From: a virus
IMG/VR virus record: IMGVR_UViG_3300031669_000178
Coordinates: 1 to 29,054 of that record
Length of the DNA stretch: 29,054 nucleotides
Reading direction: 5' to 3' (one strand)
Below, one piece after another: positions 1 through 26,854 of the stretch. How positions within the stretch are numbered: position 1 is the first letter of the stretch; each line of letters opens with the position of its first letter. Under the pieces are notes generated by a model, which did not search any database, had not been told where the DNA came from, and was given only the letters and a program-made list of their open reading frames with translations. The position numbers and the translations under genes were made by a program.

Positions 1-32
1 TGCGTCATAGATCCGCTACGAGTTAAAGGTTT

Positions 33-110
33 ACAGGCCCCTAGCCTTGTACTAAGGCTCACAAGGCTCCAGGCTTGTCAGATAGGGGTTCTACAAGGCT
101 CCAGCCTTGT
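33..110. repeat. Three 18-bp palindromic repeats
   Basis: Three related 18-bp elements lie at 33-50, 61-78 and 93-110. The third, acaaggctccagccttgt, is a perfect inverted repeat with 8-bp arms around CC. The second differs from it at one base. The first (acaggcccctagccttgt) is degenerate on the left arm. Spacing between starts is 28 and 32 bp, close to three helical turns. This fits binding by a dimeric protein, but that role is inferred. The array may continue to the left of the window. Confidence 0.6.
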
Positions 111-120
111 TCTAGGGCTA

Positions 121-351
121 ACTGTCACTACTGTCATGCTACTGTCATAGCGTTGTCGCAGGTCAGATACCCTAAATGACAGTAATGACAGTATGACAGT
201 AGATATGTAGGTCATAGGTTGTGATGTGTGTATGCGCTCTATAGGGGGGTGGAGTTGGAAACTTGCTGTCATGCCGTCATACTGTCATATCTGGTACCTG
301 ACCTGCGATGACGCGCTAAACCTACCGTCACGCCATCTGTCATATGACAGC
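121..351. repeat. Iteron-like array of ACTGTCAT motifs, putative replication origin
   Basis: The 8-mer ACTGTCAT, or a close variant, occurs in three triplets plus a palindrome. Plus-strand copies start at 121, 130 and 141. Minus-strand copies (ATGACAGT) start at 176, 185 and 193. Plus-strand copies start at 265, 273 and 281 and are exactly head to tail. A CTGTCATATGACAG palindrome occupies 337-350. The interval is visibly more AT-rich than the coding DNA around it, mostly between 170 and 240. It lies next to the 3' end of a primase/helicase gene. Iterons beside such genes are known from P4-like elements and many phages, so an origin is the leading reading. An operator array is the main alternative. 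Confidence 0.55.
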
Positions 352-353
352 AG

Positions 354-386
354 GAAGCCCCGCCGGTGGGTGGCCGACGGGGCTTC
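354..386 (-). terminator. Hairpin terminator of the primase operon
   Basis: An inverted repeat with 13-nt arms (354-366 and 374-386, one mismatch, GC-rich core GAAGCCCC/GGGGCTTC, 7-nt loop) starts 16 bp beyond the end of the primase gene. Read leftward it would end the HTH-primase transcript. There is no T tract, as is common for hairpin terminators of high-GC actinobacteria. Its right neighbour is coding, and its left neighbour is the repeat-rich origin-like region. Confidence 0.55.
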
Positions 387-402
387 TGGTGTCAACACGA
401 CA

Positions 403-2796
403 CTATTTACCGAAGAAGTTGTCCTGTGTCAACGCGTCACGAACCCTCAGGAGGTAGCCGCGAGCCGTGTTCGTGCGCGTCGCCTTCGCTCCGCGAGCAG
501 TCAACTCGCGGCCGAACGTCAGGATCCCCTTGGGGGTGATGTTGCCGGCCTCGCACCAGTTCTTGTAGCTCCGGTAGAGGTTGTCGACAGGTGTCATGAC
601 GTCACTCTCGACGACGCGTTCGGTCATCCACATGCCGAACTCGTCTTCCTCCTCGATGAAGCGCTCGGTGTCCATCGTCGCTTCGAGAGGCGCCTCGAGA
701 CCGCGGGTGCGCCACTCCTGGGTGCCGCGAACGGCCCAGGCGAGCACGCCGGGGAGCTCGTTCGCGATGATCCGAGCTGCGAGGTTGCGGTCGATCTCTT
801 CGTCAGGGATGCGGACAGGCCAGGAGATCAGGCGCAGTCGCCGCATGGTCGCCGGGTCGTGGTTGATGTGCGGGAGGTGGTTCGTCGTCATGTGGACCTT
901 GCCGACCATCTGGAATTCGCGGAAGTCCTGGCCCATCCCGCGCGCCACCATCGTCCCGCCGCCGCTGAGCCTCTTGATCGTCGCTTCGTCGAGTCTGGCG
1001 CCCTGTGTCGTCTCGTCAAGGGCGAGCCAGCGGCGGCCTTCCATCCGGGCGATGTCGGTCGGGTGCTGCTCCATCCTCTTCGCGAGCAGCGTGTTGCTCG
1101 GGACGGCTTGTGCGTAGTCGCCGAGCATCGCTGCGATCACCTTGAGGAAGACCGTCTTGCCGTTGTTGGTCTCGCCGTGGTGGAGAAAGAAGACCTGCTC
1201 GCCGACGTCGCCCGTGATCGAGTAGCCGACGATCCGCTGGAGATAGTCCCGCACGTCCTTGCTCGGGATGACGCGCTCGAGGAAGGCGACCCACTGCGGA
1301 CAGGTCGCTGCGGGGTCGTAGTTGACGGGGACCTGCTGGCGCATGAGCATCCCCGGCTGGGGGGCCATGAGCGCGCCGGAGACGAGGTCGAGCACGCCGT
1401 TCTTCACGTTCAGCAATCGGGGTTCTGCGTCGAACTCGAACGAGCACGCGTTGAGCACTCCCATGTACCGGATCATGGACGCCGCCGCTGAGATTCTCGC
1501 GGTGTAACGCTGGTCTGTATTCCACTTGAGGAACTCGATCCGCTCGCTCGTCGGCTCCTTCTTGCCGGGGCGCATCCCGAGGGTCTCGGAGTACAGCGGG
1601 GCCTCGAGAATCTTCGTCTGCTCGAGCATGTCGATCACGGCGCGCTCGCCTGCAGTGGCGGAGTCGATCCACCGGCCGTCGAGGAAGATGGCCCATATCT
1701 TGAGCTCGGGGATCCACCGGAGGCGGTCGTGGTAGAGCGCGACCGTGCGGTGCGCGTTGCCGAGGTCGTCCCAGGTGTACTTGCGCCAGGGCGTCACGCT
1801 CTGAGGCGGCTCTGTCACGCCATGGACCGTCGGCGTCCCGCCTGCGGCCATTGCTGCACCGATGATGTCCACCGGGGGCGCGGGGAACGGCGCCGGCTCG
1901 GCGCGGTGGAGTTGGGAGCGCCACTTCGCGGCGACGTCGTTCGGACCCCATTGCCCACCCGTCGGTGCGGCGTCGCGAAAATGCTCCCAGGCCTGCTCGA
2001 CGCTGAGCGGGTTCCAGTCCGCGAGCGCGATGGCCGCCATCCGGATCGCCTTGTCGGCCTGGAGCTTCTCCCAGCCGCGGCCGATCGAGTCGGTCTGGCC
2101 GATCGTCCACGACGCGCTCGCGCGCAGGTCCGACCGGATCCCCTCGATCGAGCTGGCGACGAAGGCGTCGATCCGCTGCTTCTCGGCCGGTGTCAGGGCG
2201 TCGTAGGCCACCGACGGCGTCGTCGTCTTGCGCATCTTCTCGGTCGGGGCCTGTGACTGCAGGTGCGCAACCCAGGAGGCCGGCAGCAGGGGCAGATCGG
2301 CGACCTTCGGGGCCTTGGTCGTCTCGGGGCCGTACCACCAGGCATAGGTGTGCCCGTCGGGGTGCAGGGAGGGAGAGACGATCGCGTAGCGGTGATTCCA
2401 GCGGATCGTCTCGATGCCCTCGCCGACGTCGCCGAAGCGGGACTCGACGCCCTCGGGCAGCCGGAAGAGATAGATCCCGCTGGTTCCGTCCGTCTTGGAG
2501 CTCGAGCGCCACGTGGGCGGCAGCGGGCCGAGGATCTCCTGCAGGCGGGCGTAGGTCGCCATGCCGGCGGCCTTGTAGGCGTCGATGTCGATGCCGACGA
2601 CGTCGTGCGGTAGGCGCAGGGCGATGTTCGAGTCGGGGTTGGTCTCCGACCAACTCTCCACGTCGGCATAGGACGGGTAGTAGTCGACGCCGCCCGTCGT
2701 GCCGTCGGGAGGCGGAGTCTTCTTGCCGTTGGGGAGCGGGAGAGGTGCCCATCCGGCCTGGTGGTAGTGCCGGGCGTACTCTCCGAATCCTGTCAC
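403..2796 (-). CDS. Primase-polymerase / SF3 helicase (D5-like)
   Basis: A 797-residue bifunctional replication protein that should prime and unwind phage DNA at the origin. Residues 1-180 resemble the archaeo-eukaryotic prim-pol domain: the metal-binding GIDID lies at 68-72 and the HRYAIVSPS segment at 135-143. The usual motif II histidine is not obvious in SGIYLF (106-111), which resembles the SGIR form I recall in actinophage homologues. The C-terminal half is an SF3/D5 helicase: Walker A GETNNGKT at 541-548, Walker B ending in LDE at 593-595, sensor-like TTNHLP at 637-642, and an arginine-finger region MRRLRL at 651-656. The last 80 residues look like a D5-type winged-helix tail. The GTG start overlaps the upstream HTH stop as GTGA, so the two are probably translationally coupled. 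The gene runs opposite to the structural genes. Confidence 0.9.
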   Translation of the reverse strand: MTGFGEYARHYHQAGWAPLPLPNGKKTPPPDGTTGGVDYYPSYADVESWSETNPDSNIALRLPHDVVGIDIDAYKAAGMATYARLQEILGPLPPTWRSSSKTDGTSGIYLFRLPEGVESRFGDVGEGIETIRWNHRYAIVSPSLHPDGHTYAWWYGPETTKAPKVADLPLLPASWVAHLQSQAPTEKMRKTTTPSVAYDALTPAEKQRIDAFVASSIEGIRSDLRASASWTIGQTDSIGRGWEKLQADKAIRMAAIALADWNPLSVEQAWEHFRDAAPTGGQWGPNDVAAKWRSQLHRAEPAPFPAPPVDIIGAAMAAGGTPTVHGVTEPPQSVTPWRKYTWDDLGNAHRTVALYHDRLRWIPELKIWAIFLDGRWIDSATAGERAVIDMLEQTKILEAPLYSETLGMRPGKKEPTSERIEFLKWNTDQRYTARISAAASMIRYMGVLNACSFEFDAEPRLLNVKNGVLDLVSGALMAPQPGMLMRQQVPVNYDPAATCPQWVAFLERVIPSKDVRDYLQRIVGYSITGDVGEQVFFLHHGETNNGKTVFLKVIAAMLGDYAQAVPSNTLLAKRMEQHPTDIARMEGRRWLALDETTQGARLDEATIKRLSGGGTMVARGMGQDFREFQMVGKVHMTTNHLPHINHDPATMRRLRLISWPVRIPDEEIDRNLAARIIANELPGVLAWAVRGTQEWRTRGLEAPLEATMDTERFIEEEDEFGMWMTERVVESDVMTPVDNLYRSYKNWCEAGNITPKGILTFGRELTARGAKATRTNTARGYLLRVRDALTQDNFFGK

Positions 2797-2978
2797 TTAG
2801 AACTAGCCACGACGACGCGGCTGGCGACATACGCTTCGAGGGCAGAGCGCTGATACCAGATGCGCCCCTCGATCTTCACGTAGTCGGGGCCTCGTCGCTG
2901 GTATCGCCAGGTCACCAGCGTGCGTCCCTCGACGTGGAGGATCGCGGCTACTTCCGCGGGCGAGAGCAGTTGGTCCAC
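2793..2978 (-). CDS. Small helix-turn-helix (AlpA/excisionase-type) protein
   Basis: A 61-residue DNA-binding protein of the HTH_17/AlpA/excisionase-like group. The N-terminal SPAEVAAILHVEGRTLVTW forms the helix-turn-helix. The wing follows with R-G-P-D-Y-V-K-I and W-Y-Q-R-S-A-L-E-A-Y, the standard pattern of this family. The GTG start at 2978 is preceded by a strong TAGGAGGA ribosome binding site. Its stop overlaps the primase GTG start by 4 bp, so it is the first gene of a two-gene leftward operon. A role as regulator or replication accessory factor acting at the nearby repeats is plausible. A recombination directionality factor is possible, but no integrase is seen. Confidence 0.8.
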   Translation of the reverse strand: MDQLLSPAEVAAILHVEGRTLVTWRYQRRGPDYVKIEGRIWYQRSALEAYVASRVVVASSK

Positions 2979-3077
2979 AGGTTCCTCCTAGGATGGGGCG
3001 ACTCGAAGGACTATACACGCGGGGTAGACATGAGTACAGTCGGCGTCCATAGCAATCTCAAGCAACCGGAGGCCTAG
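2979..3077. promoter_or_regulatory. Divergent intergenic promoter region
   Basis: This 99-bp gap separates the leftward HTH-primase operon from the rightward gene cluster and should hold both promoters. On the minus strand a TATAGT -10-like box (3010-3015) lies 31 nt before the HTH start, with no good -35. On the plus strand TAGACA (3025-3030) is a possible -10, again without a clear -35. The two candidates lie within 20 bp of each other, so one regulator could control both directions. Assignment is by eye only. Confidence 0.35.
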
Positions 3078-3350
3078 ATGACTGCCCTCTCGCCCGACAT
3101 CGACACCCTCGAGTCGCTCGACTTCGCCATCCCGTGCATCGGGGTCGACTGCTCGAACGCGGCCGAGTGGACCGGGGACACGTGGTGCTCGGTGGGTCAG
3201 CACAGGATCACCACGATGCTGTGCACCCCCTGTCGCGACGCATGGGTCGAGTTGGTCCAGAGATCTCGGGAAGCCATCGGGAACAAGGCTCCAGTCCGGT
3301 GCCTGGCCCACCTGTGCGCCGTTCCTGACCTCGTGTGGGTGCACCTGTGA
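3078..3350 (+). CDS. Small Cys-rich (zinc-binding-like) protein
   Basis: A 90-residue protein I do not recognise. It has C20-x4-C25, C37, H42, C49-x2-C52, C75 and C80, with C-x2-C arranged as in zinc ribbon or treble-clef folds, so metal binding is likely but unproven. The start at 3078 has a good CCGGAGG ribosome binding site. Its end overlaps the helicase gene (GTGA at 3347-3350), which implies coupled translation. Being first in the rightward cluster and coupled to a helicase, it may be a small replication or DNA-processing partner. That is inference from position alone. Confidence 0.7.
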   Translation: MTALSPDIDTLESLDFAIPCIGVDCSNAAEWTGDTWCSVGQHRITTMLCTPCRDAWVELVQRSREAIGNKAPVRCLAHLCAVPDLVWVHL

Positions 3351-5038
3351 GCACAGCGCTCGACGACGTCCTGGCCCACCTCGGCTACGCTCACCGGCCC
3401 CAGCAGGACGCGCTCTTCGCCCACCTCATGACCATCGACGGCGGCGGCGTCATCGCCCAGGCCGGCACGGGCACGGGCAAGAGCATCGCTGTGCTCGCCG
3501 CGGCGGCCGAGTTGGCCGAGGTCCACGGCCTGCCCTCGCTCGTGGTGTGTCCGACCAACATCTTGCTCGACCAGTACATCGAGACGGACGCTCCGGGCGT
3601 CGAGGCCTCTTTGGGGGTCCGTGTGCGCGCGCTCAAGGGGCGCAACCACTACCTCTGCGCGAGCGCCCCCGGCTGGCTGGTCGCCCGTGACCCTCGCGCG
3701 GCGCACGCGCTCGCAGAGCGGCTGAATGACCGCAGCAAGGTTCAGGAGACGCTCGACACCTACTATGGGTGCCCGGGGAGCGACGAGTGCGACCCGGATG
3801 GCGTCTGTCACTACCGGATGGCGAAGGAACGCTTGCAGGACGCCGACATCATCATCACGAACGCGCACCTGCTCATCATCGACGCCCAGCTCAAGGCGGC
3901 CAGCGAGGACGGGCCACGGATCTTCCCGGACCTCGGCGCCATCTTCGTTGACGAGGCGCACGCGCTCGAGGAGGTGGCCCGCGGCTTCACCGAGAGCTCG
4001 ATCAACCTCGCGACCGTCGACTCCATGGGGCACTACGGCGCGCCACTGGTGGCCCTCATGAGGACGTGGGAGCGCCAGGTGCGCGAGCCGCGCGAGATCG
4101 GCACCCACCTCATGCCGCACCTCGCTGCAGCGTTGCGCACCCTCAAGATGTGGAAGCCCGAGGAGAGCGAGCGGCCGAGCCAGCGCAAGTACGACGTCGC
4201 GCGCGCGGCGCAGAACATCCTGCTCGCCGGCGAGCGTGGGGTCTTCGCTGACGGTCACCGCGTGCTCTGGTTCGATCCGCCGAAGGACAAGAAGATGTCG
4301 CGCGTCGTCGGAACCGACATCAACCTCTCGGCGATGATGGGCCAGATCCTCCACGCCCAGCCGTTCGCCATGGTCTCGGCCACCATCCCCTCGACGCTCT
4401 CGCGGGCGCTCGGCGTGCCTGAGGCGCGCTTCATCGACGTCGGGCACCCGTTCGACTACGCCCGGCAGGCCGCCATCGGCTTCTCGGCCCTGCCAGGGGA
4501 CTATCGCTCGTCTCAGAGCCCCGCGAACATGGCCCAGCGCGCCGACGAGCTCGCCCAGAAGGTGCTCGACATCGGCGGCGGCGCCCTACTCCTGTTCAGC
4601 TCGTTCCGCGACCTGGACTTCGTCTACGCCCGGATCGCGCTGCGACTGAGGTCCGCGGGGATCACCGTGCTCATTCAGGAGCGCGACTCCGACAAGAATC
4701 GGCTCGCGGACATGTTCAAGAAGGATGGGAACGCCGTGCTGTTCGGCTCCGCGTCGTTCGCCACCGGCTTCGACTGCCCCGGTGACGCGTTGCGCATGGT
4801 CTCGCTCTGGAAGCTGCCCTATCCGGGGCTGGACCCTGTCACGCGGGCGATCAGCGCCGCCAGTCGCCAGCGCTACGAGGACATGATGCTCGTGGCGTCC
4901 GTGCAGGCGATCGGACGGCTGATCCGCACGTCGACGGACTACGGCACCGTGTGGGTGGCCGACTCGCGAGGCCGCGAGAAGTTGATCGCACGCAGCGATC
5001 CGATGACTGCCCACCTTCGGGAGTTCGCGCCGCTATGA
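3347..5038 (+). CDS. DinG/XPD-type superfamily 2 helicase with Fe-S cysteines
   Basis: A 563-residue ATP-dependent DNA helicase. From the GTG at 3347: Walker A AGTGTGKS at 39-46, motif Ia-like VVCPTN at about 66-71, four cysteines (C104, C142, C148, C154) matching the iron-sulphur domain of the XPD/DinG family, TNAHLL around 171-176, and the DEAH box in VDEAHALEE at about 201-209. The C-terminal domain has FATGFDCPG (motif V-like) and QAIGRLIRT (motif VI). I prefer 3347 over the in-frame GTG at 3335 because it gives the 4-bp GTGA overlap with the preceding gene. These helicases unwind 5' to 3' in repair and replication. Here it probably serves phage DNA replication or recombination before packaging. 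Confidence 0.88.
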   Translation: MSTALDDVLAHLGYAHRPQQDALFAHLMTIDGGGVIAQAGTGTGKSIAVLAAAAELAEVHGLPSLVVCPTNILLDQYIETDAPGVEASLGVRVRALKGRNHYLCASAPGWLVARDPRAAHALAERLNDRSKVQETLDTYYGCPGSDECDPDGVCHYRMAKERLQDADIIITNAHLLIIDAQLKAASEDGPRIFPDLGAIFVDEAHALEEVARGFTESSINLATVDSMGHYGAPLVALMRTWERQVREPREIGTHLMPHLAAALRTLKMWKPEESERPSQRKYDVARAAQNILLAGERGVFADGHRVLWFDPPKDKKMSRVVGTDINLSAMMGQILHAQPFAMVSATIPSTLSRALGVPEARFIDVGHPFDYARQAAIGFSALPGDYRSSQSPANMAQRADELAQKVLDIGGGALLLFSSFRDLDFVYARIALRLRSAGITVLIQERDSDKNRLADMFKKDGNAVLFGSASFATGFDCPGDALRMVSLWKLPYPGLDPVTRAISAASRQRYEDMMLVASVQAIGRLIRTSTDYGTVWVADSRGREKLIARSDPMTAHLREFAPL

Positions 5039-10512: not shown

Positions 10513-12159
10513 ATGAGCGCCGCCGTTCGCGCTGTCGTCACCGCCTACAACACCGCGAGCACGACTTCGCGCTCGGTCGTCGTCCCGGCGGGGTCCGTCG
10601 TCGGGGACTACGCCCTCGTCTTCGCGTCCGCCGAGCGCACGATCATCCCGACCACGCCTGCCGGCTGGACCGAGATTCAGTCGCTCGCAAGCACGGGCTC
10701 GGCCTCGATGCTCGCGTGGAAGGTGCTCACTTCCGGCGATCTCGGCGCGACGGTCACCACGACCGTCTCCACTTCGAGGCGTCTGTCGATGGCTCTCGTC
10801 GTCATCTCCGGAGCAACAGGGACTCCGCAGTTCGTCACGCAGGCGTTCACGAACTCGAACCCCGGCGTCATGGTTGGACCGGCGTTGACGCCGACCAGCA
10901 ACGACTGCCTGCTCGTCGGCCTGCTCAACGCGATGAGCTACGCAACTCCGTACGAGCGCACTCACACGGTCGACTCTCCCTACACGGAGATCGTGGACGT
11001 TTCGTCGACCTATGCGACCGGCAACGATGCCCAGTGCGCTGCCGGTTCGCAGAGTGTCGTCGGCGGGTCCGGGGTCTCTCAGTCCGGTGCGACGATCAAC
11101 TCCTCGTCTGGTAGTACCAACTTCTTCGGGACGACCGTCGAGTTCACGAGCGCAGCGACGTCGACCACGTACGGCATTGATGGAGCTTCGAGCGTCACTG
11201 CGACTCAGGACGGCTCCGCCACTCGCGTCGCAGTCGGCGACTCGGCCTCGAGTGTCACTGCGACCGGCAATGCGACGTCGACCCGCACTACGCTCGCCGA
11301 TGCCGCCACGAGTGTCTCGGCCGCTCGTAGCGCGACGGCAGATCGTGTTGCGCTTGCCGACGCTGTCTCGAGCGTCTCGGCCGCTCGCAGCGCCTCCTCG
11401 ACTCGCACCACGCGTGCTGGCGTCTCCTTGGGGGCGTCGGCTGCTCGTAGCGCGACGTCGACCCGGATCGGACGCGCCGTCGCCTCTGCTGCCATCGTTG
11501 CGGCGCTGGCTTCGTCAGCGACGGTCGTTACTCCCGCCGGCGCCCAGGCCGTCGTCTCCGTCTCGAGGACCGCCTCTGCGACCGTCCTGCACCATGCGGG
11601 AGCCTCCGAGGTCGTCACTGCCAGCAGGTCGGCGACAGCAACCCGGAAGGTCGCCGGCGCTGCCGCGACGGCCGTGACCGCTACCCTCACGGCCAGCGCG
11701 AGCCTCGTCAGTATGAACGCCATGGACGCCCACCTGGCGGTCACGGAGACCTCTGCGGCCACGATGACCAAGAGGGTCCTGGGGCAGGGCGCTCTCGGGG
11801 CCGCGGCGACCGCGACGGCTCACGCCACGCGCATCATGACGCCCGACGCTTCCCTCTCGGTCTCCGCCGCTCCCACCGCGTCCGCCATCCTCACCGCCCC
11901 GGTCGGCGCTGACACCTCCGTGTTGGCGGAACTCTCCTCTGCAACTACCCGCACGACTCTTGCCGATTCGGCTACCTTGGTAGAGGTAGGCCTGTCTGCC
12001 TCCGCGACTGTGCTCACCCCCAATGCGCGACGAGACATTACCGTCGTCATCTCTGGCCCGGCTCGTCACAGGACTCCCACCTCTGCCCCCTCTCGCGTCT
12101 CCGTCGACGCCGTCGGCCCCCGCTCTGCTTCCGTTGTTGTCTCTGGTCCGAGGAGTTAG
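10513..12159 (+). CDS. 548-residue structural protein with 20-residue repeats
   Basis: Residues 1-214 form a Thr/Ser/Val-rich beta domain (for example WTEIQSLASTGSASMLAWKV) like jelly-roll modules of phage fibre and decoration proteins. From about residue 215 to the end the protein is a tandem repeat with a 20-residue (60-bp) period, roughly 16-17 copies. The best-conserved units (11281-11460) follow the pattern TRTTLADAATSVSAARSATS. Later copies are increasingly diverged and one is 22 residues long. Ala, Ser, Thr and Val dominate, and hydrophobics alternate, suggesting a beta-solenoid or stacked hairpins. A GGAAGG site precedes the ATG. It lies among head genes, so an exposed head or neck fibre is my best guess. 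No catalytic residues are apparent. Confidence 0.65.
   Translation: MSAAVRAVVTAYNTASTTSRSVVVPAGSVVGDYALVFASAERTIIPTTPAGWTEIQSLASTGSASMLAWKVLTSGDLGATVTTTVSTSRRLSMALVVISGATGTPQFVTQAFTNSNPGVMVGPALTPTSNDCLLVGLLNAMSYATPYERTHTVDSPYTEIVDVSSTYATGNDAQCAAGSQSVVGGSGVSQSGATINSSSGSTNFFGTTVEFTSAATSTTYGIDGASSVTATQDGSATRVAVGDSASSVTATGNATSTRTTLADAATSVSAARSATADRVALADAVSSVSAARSASSTRTTRAGVSLGASAARSATSTRIGRAVASAAIVAALASSATVVTPAGAQAVVSVSRTASATVLHHAGASEVVTASRSATATRKVAGAAATAVTATLTASASLVSMNAMDAHLAVTETSAATMTKRVLGQGALGAAATATAHATRIMTPDASLSVSAAPTASAILTAPVGADTSVLAELSSATTRTTLADSATLVEVGLSASATVLTPNARRDITVVISGPARHRTPTSAPSRVSVDAVGPRSASVVVSGPRS
11155..12156 (+). repeat. 60-bp tandem repeat inside the 548-residue gene
   Basis: The coding sequence repeats every 60 bp in frame. 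At DNA level the segment GTCTCGGCCGCTCG is exact at 11314 and 11374 and nearly repeated at 11434. GCGACGTCGACC recurs at about 11155, 11271 and 11451. The similarity is strongest between about 11215 and 11480 and fades downstream, as if the array grew by duplication and then diverged. Confidence 0.7.
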
Positions 12160-26428: not shown

Positions 26429-26854
26429 GTGGATTGGGCGCTGGCGTTGGCTGGCCTCGTGTTCGGGGCTGGAGGCGGAGCTGTTGTCAAGACGGTCATC
26501 ACAGGTCGAGCGTCGGCCAAGAAGATCGGCGCAGAGGCCGCAGCGGTCACGGGAAAGATTCCATTCGAGAATGATTCCCTGGCCGTTCAGAACGCTGAGC
26601 AGAGCTTGAACATCATGCAAGGACTGAATGTGACACTCGTAACAGAGAACGCGCGCCTCATCAAAGAGAACGACCGGCTCAACGGCATGATCTCAGAGAA
26701 GGACGCCGCTCTCGAGCGGTTGTCTCTCCAGCTCGAGAGTTATCGAGAGCGCGTTGAGATCGCAGAGTCAGCCCTTCGAGTGGCGAACTCGAAGTACACT
26801 GAACTTCGTCGGGATCTCGACGCGCTTCGCGATCACCCAGGGAGCCAAGCATGA
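26429..26854 (+). CDS. Membrane-anchored coiled-coil protein
   Basis: A 141-residue protein: an N-terminal hydrophobic segment (about 3-23, Gly/Ala-rich) followed by a long hydrophilic helix with heptad-like leucines (about 58-135, ENARLIKENDRLNG and ALERLSLQLESYRERVEI). This one-span plus coiled-coil build resembles XhlA-like or Rz-like lysis accessory proteins. A tail-associated role is possible. GTG start with a GGGGG stretch upstream. It overlaps the following fibre gene by ATGA. Confidence 0.6.
   Translation: MDWALALAGLVFGAGGGAVVKTVITGRASAKKIGAEAAAVTGKIPFENDSLAVQNAEQSLNIMQGLNVTLVTENARLIKENDRLNGMISEKDAALERLSLQLESYRERVEIAESALRVANSKYTELRRDLDALRDHPGSQA

Follow-up and report, generated by a model that had tools for sequence, protein, structure and literature searches.

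For most tailed phages, the site at which replication starts has yet to be mapped. In phage P4 (X51522), the alpha gene (minus strand) is followed by a terminator (4604-4628) and then by crr, in which 8-bp type 1 repeats, mostly reading CTGTTCACC, are ordered ++--+ twice; a second, distant iteron region forms ori. In PICIs, the origin directly follows the 3' end of the initiator gene and has an AT-rich region between two iteron sets, a layout said to be common to no other known bacterial replicon (PMC6092414). The pRN1 origin requires 166 bp 3' of the gene for a Prim-Pol/SF3/winged-helix protein, with a stem-loop, and its authors found no iterons there, nor at the origin of the related Bordetella phage BIP-1 (PMC4234260). 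In SCCmec, the C-terminal domain of Cch2 binds repeats downstream of its gene (PMC7581432), and it is through their own C-terminal domains that the initiators of P4, SaPI and SCCmec bind iterons (PMC4234260, PMC7581432). Here, we describe a repeat array at positions 121 to 350 of an uncultivated phage contig that, judged from sequence comparisons, is probably (about 80%) an iteron origin of the P4/PICI type, or else a crr-like cis element, and is recognised by the P4-family primase that the phage itself encodes.

Iteron array and presumed initiator gene

The window (the whole stretch of DNA that was analysed, 29,054 bp) is a linear IMG/VR fragment from a siphovirus-like genome and carries genes for the large terminase, portal, protease, major capsid, major tail and tape measure proteins. 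A 548-aa protein encoded amid the head-protein genes (10513-12159) was without a PHROG match. Features of the primase region are listed in Table 1.

Table 1. Features at the left end of the window, ordered by position
Feature	Position	Strand	Description
Three 18-bp palindrome-like repeats	33-50, 61-78, 93-110		ACAAGGCTCCAGCCTTGT type; left of the array
Iteron set A	121-148	+	ACTGTCAC at 121 (one mismatch); exact ACTGTCAT at 130 and 141
Inverted repeat, left arm	150-184		35 nt, imperfect; 83% complementary to 280-314
Iteron set B	176-200	-	Exact ACTGTCAT at 176, 185 and 193
B-C spacer	201-264		64 bp; GC about 0.42-0.53 (window, 0.65)
Iteron set C	265-288	+	Head to tail; GCTGTCAT at 265 (one mismatch), GCCGTCAT at 273 (two mismatches), exact ACTGTCAT at 281
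Inverted repeat, right arm	280-314		35 nt, imperfect; partner of 150-184
Palindromic iteron pair	337-350		CTGTCATATGACAG; perfect 14-bp palindrome
GC-rich hairpin	354-386		Between primase stop and array, where P4 has its alpha terminator; lacks a T run
Primase-helicase	403-2796	-	797 aa; Prim-Pol, D5_N and DUF5906 (SF3); presumed initiator
HTH_17/excisionase-like protein	2793-2978	-	61 aa; ahead of the primase in the same operon

The primase scored 241.2 bits against TIGR01613 ('phage/plasmid primase, P4 family'; curated cut-off, 108.7), and both D5_N and DUF5906 were above cut-off, giving an SF3/D5 helicase core. Its predicted model was confident for the helicase part only, which matched the SaPI5 primase-helicase (7ola) and poxvirus D5 structurally. 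The last 108 residues were modelled with a helix-helix-strand-strand order, like that of a winged helix (pLDDT, 66.5), and their best Foldseek matches were mostly winged helices, including Orc1/Cdc6 (all E > 0.05; best, 0.077), which is suggestive only of a winged-helix fold at the C terminus. The 61-aa HTH_17 protein is a possible regulator or co-factor. A single-protein search of viral contigs found no close relatives of the primase; the closest relative found overall (contig L438) was about 33% identical. The nearest named phages by DNA (Microbacterium and Curtobacterium phages) differed in gene order and had no CTGTCA array near the primase.

Exact copies of ACTGTCAT numbered six in the window, every one inside 130-288 (expected, 0.42), and none of 100 shuffles reached six. 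Three triplets ordered +++, --- and +++, followed by the palindromic pair, place iteron sets in opposite orientations, as at P4/PICI-type origins. The geometry and positions of the three 8-bp triplets are as given in the first-pass annotation, as is the perfect palindrome; the copies are less uniform than it implied, since three of the nine carry one or two mismatches (Table 1). Its further claim that the arrangement is far from random was upheld without reference to a chosen motif: the top 7-mer of positions 1-402 was ATGACAG (9 copies, both strands), the highest copy number of any 7-mer in 2,000 dinucleotide shuffles was 5, and the top 7-mer of the other 400-bp tiles of the window reached at most 6. 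The shorter form CTGTCAT occurred 11 times in the window, with 9 of the 11 at 131-350, and the 3' flank of the primase held 131 repeated 7-mer pairs versus 10.5 expected.

Going from the primase, the order of parts is stop codon, hairpin, palindromic pair, +++ triplet (265-288), spacer, --- triplet (176-200) and +++ triplet (121-148). The array begins 53 bp from the primase stop, beyond the hairpin and directly 3' of the presumed initiator gene, which is where P4/PICI-type origins lie. The AT-richer centre described earlier is present in moderate form: GC across 161-260 was 0.35-0.53 versus 0.65 for the whole window, a mild AT-richness with no strong AT tract, and the B-C spacer is a possible melting region. 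The 35-nt inverted repeat spans this spacer and reaches past the iterons, and 22 nt stay paired when the iteron cores are masked. Folding of the array strand was stronger than that of shuffles (z = -6.6, partly due to the hairpin and the inverted iterons).

The inverted repeat, the hairpin and the 18-bp repeats are additions to the first-pass annotation. The hairpin at 354-386 was not scored as an intrinsic terminator. The 18-bp repeats on the left (33-110) had matches in viral contigs at about chance level only and are possibly sites of another protein. The neighbourhood of the array is incomplete because the contig ends 33 bp left of the first of these repeats.

Comparison with described origins

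The likeness to P4 lies in the order of parts: a P4-family primase-helicase gene, a terminator or hairpin, and 8-bp iterons in two orientations directly 3' (crr). The iteron-origin reading beside an SF3 primase, as first proposed by analogy with P4, therefore agrees with both the TIGR01613 match and the alpha-crr gene order, although by position the region matches crr and not ori, to which it had been likened. P4 has its second iteron region at a distance, whereas the window contig is cut at its left end. The motif had been noted as unfamiliar from described phages, yet it lacks only a single base of P4's type 1 repeat. In a set of 24 arrays, CTGTCA was most often followed by C (frequency 0.51) or T (0.29); the commonest array form, CTGTCACC, is one base shorter than, and one base apart from, P4 CTGTTCACC. 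The window iteron itself is ACTGTCAT; the P4 type 1 iteron TGTTCACC has no exact copy in the array, CTGTCAT being one base shorter. P4 alpha has been described with a bacterial Toprim primase, whereas the window protein has an archaeo-eukaryotic Prim-Pol, and the window phage, unlike P4, encodes terminase, portal, capsid and tail proteins of its own. Literature searches found no described origin bearing the CTGTCA word.

Compared by layout, the PICI/SaPI systems share the position directly 3' of the initiator gene and iteron sets around what in the window is a possible melting region, but the window belongs to a full tailed phage and not a satellite (PICIs are without structural genes of their own, and here genes run from terminase to tape measure), and its AT-richness is mild. 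The likeness to pRN1 consists of an initiator with Prim-Pol, SF3 and (putatively, in the window) winged-helix parts, an origin (probable, in the window) in 3' non-coding DNA beyond a small hairpin, a terminator in pRN1, and a long inverted repeat, the 35-nt arms occupying the place of the long stem-loop 3' of the Prim-Pol/SF3 gene; iterons, absent from pRN1, are the main feature in the window. SCCmec Cch2 is likewise a D5-type helicase with repeats just downstream of its gene, but there the repeats are three copies of AAGTG, the polymerase-primase is separate and no phage is involved.

Related arrays in other viruses

Viral contigs were scanned for CTGTCA triplets spaced 2 to 3 bp apart (at least 120 matches), and an array was called two-orientation when both orientations fell inside 400 bp. 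Among the matches listed, loci ranged in GC from 0.34 to 0.72, and 34 of the 119 CTGTCA triplet loci were two-orientation arrays. A recognisable SF3/VapE primase was present at 13 of these 34 listed loci, and at all 13 the array was on its 3' side (at most 1 kb away at 12), an adjacency in unrelated phages that supports the iteron-origin reading. The count of 13 is inflated, since the phmmer seeds included some of the CTGTCA primases; for the same reason, a test with independent Pfam profiles is the fairer one, and it found DUF5906 or VapE in 11/22 two-orientation versus 2/28 single-orientation records (Fisher p = 0.0009). PF08706 alone was rejected as a poor marker (1/28 and 2/50 records).

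The gap between primase stop and array was 2 bp in two contigs (L061 and L070), 3 bp in L018, 6 bp in L105 and 31 bp in L146. Related arrays were found 14 bp 3' of an SF3 gene in the Desulfoprunum benzoelyticum genome and 1.3-1.4 kb 3' of one in a marine-type contig group. The initiators varied in their front ends (RepB_primase in L018, Prim-Pol in L094, Toprim with VapE in L092, none found in some) and in their helicase profiles (VapE in L061, L065 and L067; DUF5906 in L087 and L105). Identity among primases with CTGTCA arrays was mostly 20-40%; two pairs were more alike (56% and 66%).

Several other two-orientation arrays were seen in different settings. Two on short contigs (L021:3299-3634 and L069:4781-4982) adjoin terminase genes, and the replication gene may be off the contig. 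One (L258:6634-6968) is on a contig assigned by binning to an archaeon of the Nitrososphaerales, with no primase recognised in the stretch. ACTGTCA arrays ordered ---+++ in Bacteroidales genomes (L185, L195, L226, L233 and L235), also with no primase recognised in the stretch, are perhaps a different repeat element. On a plasmid of Pseudarthrobacter sp. Fe7 (L052:4970-5027), a ParA operon has, at its 3' end, six GCTGTCATT/ACTGTCATT copies that occur in both orientations and could be a centromere.

Two scrambled words were run as controls. TCCTGA gave at least 120 triplet matches, with a two-orientation array at 1/120 among the matches listed and none with a primase. GTCTAC, meant as a scramble, gave 102 triplet loci, 33 of them two-orientation and 12 beside a primase; it was rejected as a negative control, as it marks a separate iteron family, the second of the same initiator kind. 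The raw count of CTGTCA triplets (at least 120) was rejected as evidence, given at least 120 for TCCTGA and 102 for GTCTAC. Two-orientation GTCTAC (TGTCTAC) arrays beside P4/VapE-type primases were seen in L429, L438, L450, L452, L481, L499, L501 and L509; several GTCTAC arrays are directly 3' of the primase (L452, L499 and L501), and in one lineage (L438 and L484) they are 5' of it. Because GTCTAC also marks primase-side iterons, arrays that share an exact word cannot on that ground alone be taken to share ancestry. In L438, which encodes the closest relative found for the window primase, the HTH-primase pair is retained and a two-orientation GTCTAC array stands upstream of the operon, just before the HTH gene; iteron sequence and position therefore change during evolution, and the shared word CTGTCA should not be read as strict conservation.

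In a motif-independent sample, 15 phages were picked by primase similarity alone and the 400 bp 3' of the primase scored. This flank was enriched in short repeats (p ≤ 0.005) in Streptococcus phage 858, Listeria phage PSA, Mycobacterium phage Findley, Paenibacillus phage Wanderer and satellite Javan313, each with its own iterons (e.g., ACTATCCACC in PSA and ATCTGTCCA in Findley). Enrichment was less clear in Microbacterium phage Caron, where both primase flanks score, and was not significant on the 3' side in about 9 of the 15, several of which have an adjoining DNA polymerase I gene. Such a site is therefore not found behind every primase of this kind, and from these sequences the architecture appears common, not universal. 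In Bordetella phages BPP-1 and BIP-1, two plus two inverted 9-bp repeats (GTTTGCCTC) lie about 465-570 bp 3' of the primase and flank an AT-rich stretch (L302/L303, 1107-1212; record, about 26606-26715); these iterons were not reported in the paper proposing a stem-loop origin there.

Alternative explanations and proposed mechanism

The array might instead serve only as operators, without any role as an origin, for a regulator of transcription such as the HTH_17 protein or an activator of late genes. The HTH_17 protein is indeed encoded in the primase operon; in L021 and L069/L097, same-word arrays adjoin terminase genes, and in Staphylococcus phages SAP3/PMBT9 a few copies stand ahead of the terminase. 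We consider this unlikely, as no sigma-70-like promoter was found in positions 1-3200, the array is behind the 3' end of the operon and not ahead of its start, three alternating triplets over 230 bp exceed usual operator needs, and operators do not predict an association with SF3/VapE primases across unrelated phages. That the array is of origin type but bound by the HTH_17/excisionase-like protein, which would recruit the primase, would suit L438, where the HTH-primase pair recurs with the array just before the HTH gene; it is nonetheless quite improbable, since the P4, SaPI and SCCmec initiators use their own C-terminal domain (PMC4234260, PMC7581432), and the L018 array starts right behind the primase stop, at 3 bp.

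A centromere-like partition site of a phage-plasmid is brought to mind by the six related repeats beside the ParA operon of the Pseudarthrobacter sp. Fe7 plasmid; however, the scanned proteins of the window (a subset of the open reading frames) included none recognised as a partition protein, and adjacency to a primase recurs while ParA was met at one place only, which makes this very improbable. A chance cluster or a by-product of base composition is barely credible: GC in the array region is below that elsewhere in the window, which shifts word frequencies, but local dinucleotide shuffles never gave more than 5 copies of any 7-mer (0/2,000, versus 9 observed), and repeated 7-mer pairs in the 3' flank exceeded expectation more than tenfold.

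In an iteron origin recognised by the primase, the iterons would be bound by the putative C-terminal winged helix of the primase, and because the sets face opposite ways, two SF3 hexamers would come to lie head to head. The hexamers would melt the lower-GC DNA between the sets, perhaps with help from the 35-nt inverted repeat; bidirectional replication would then be primed by the Prim-Pol domain. Counting against this reading are the upstream array of L438 with its different iteron, the lack of significant enrichment behind about nine of the 15 sampled primases, the mild AT-richness of the centre, and the CTGTCA arrays seen next to packaging genes or a ParA operon. A site right behind the initiator gene would keep initiator and origin together through module exchange.

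Significance

We tentatively suggest, as a possibility short of an even chance, that a single origin architecture is in wide use among the P4/D5/VapE-type primases of tailed phages, with iterons that keep to a narrow theme, TGT, one or two bases, then AC (CTGTCAC, TGTCTAC, TGTTCAC and TGTCCAC), and that switch between its variants across primase subfamilies. What is worth pursuing is the wider pattern in full-size phages, whose initiators exchange a handful of related iteron words; the breadth of the arrays in such phages and the iterons earlier missed in BPP-1 add to the interest. Should such arrays prove to be origins, they can be located in sequence data next to any initiator that is recognisable, and the pairs of initiator and iteron offer a natural data set on the choice of DNA by SF3 winged-helix domains. 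Were the wider suggestion true, the origins of many uncultured phages would be predictable, and a protein-DNA recognition code might be read from the C termini of their initiators.
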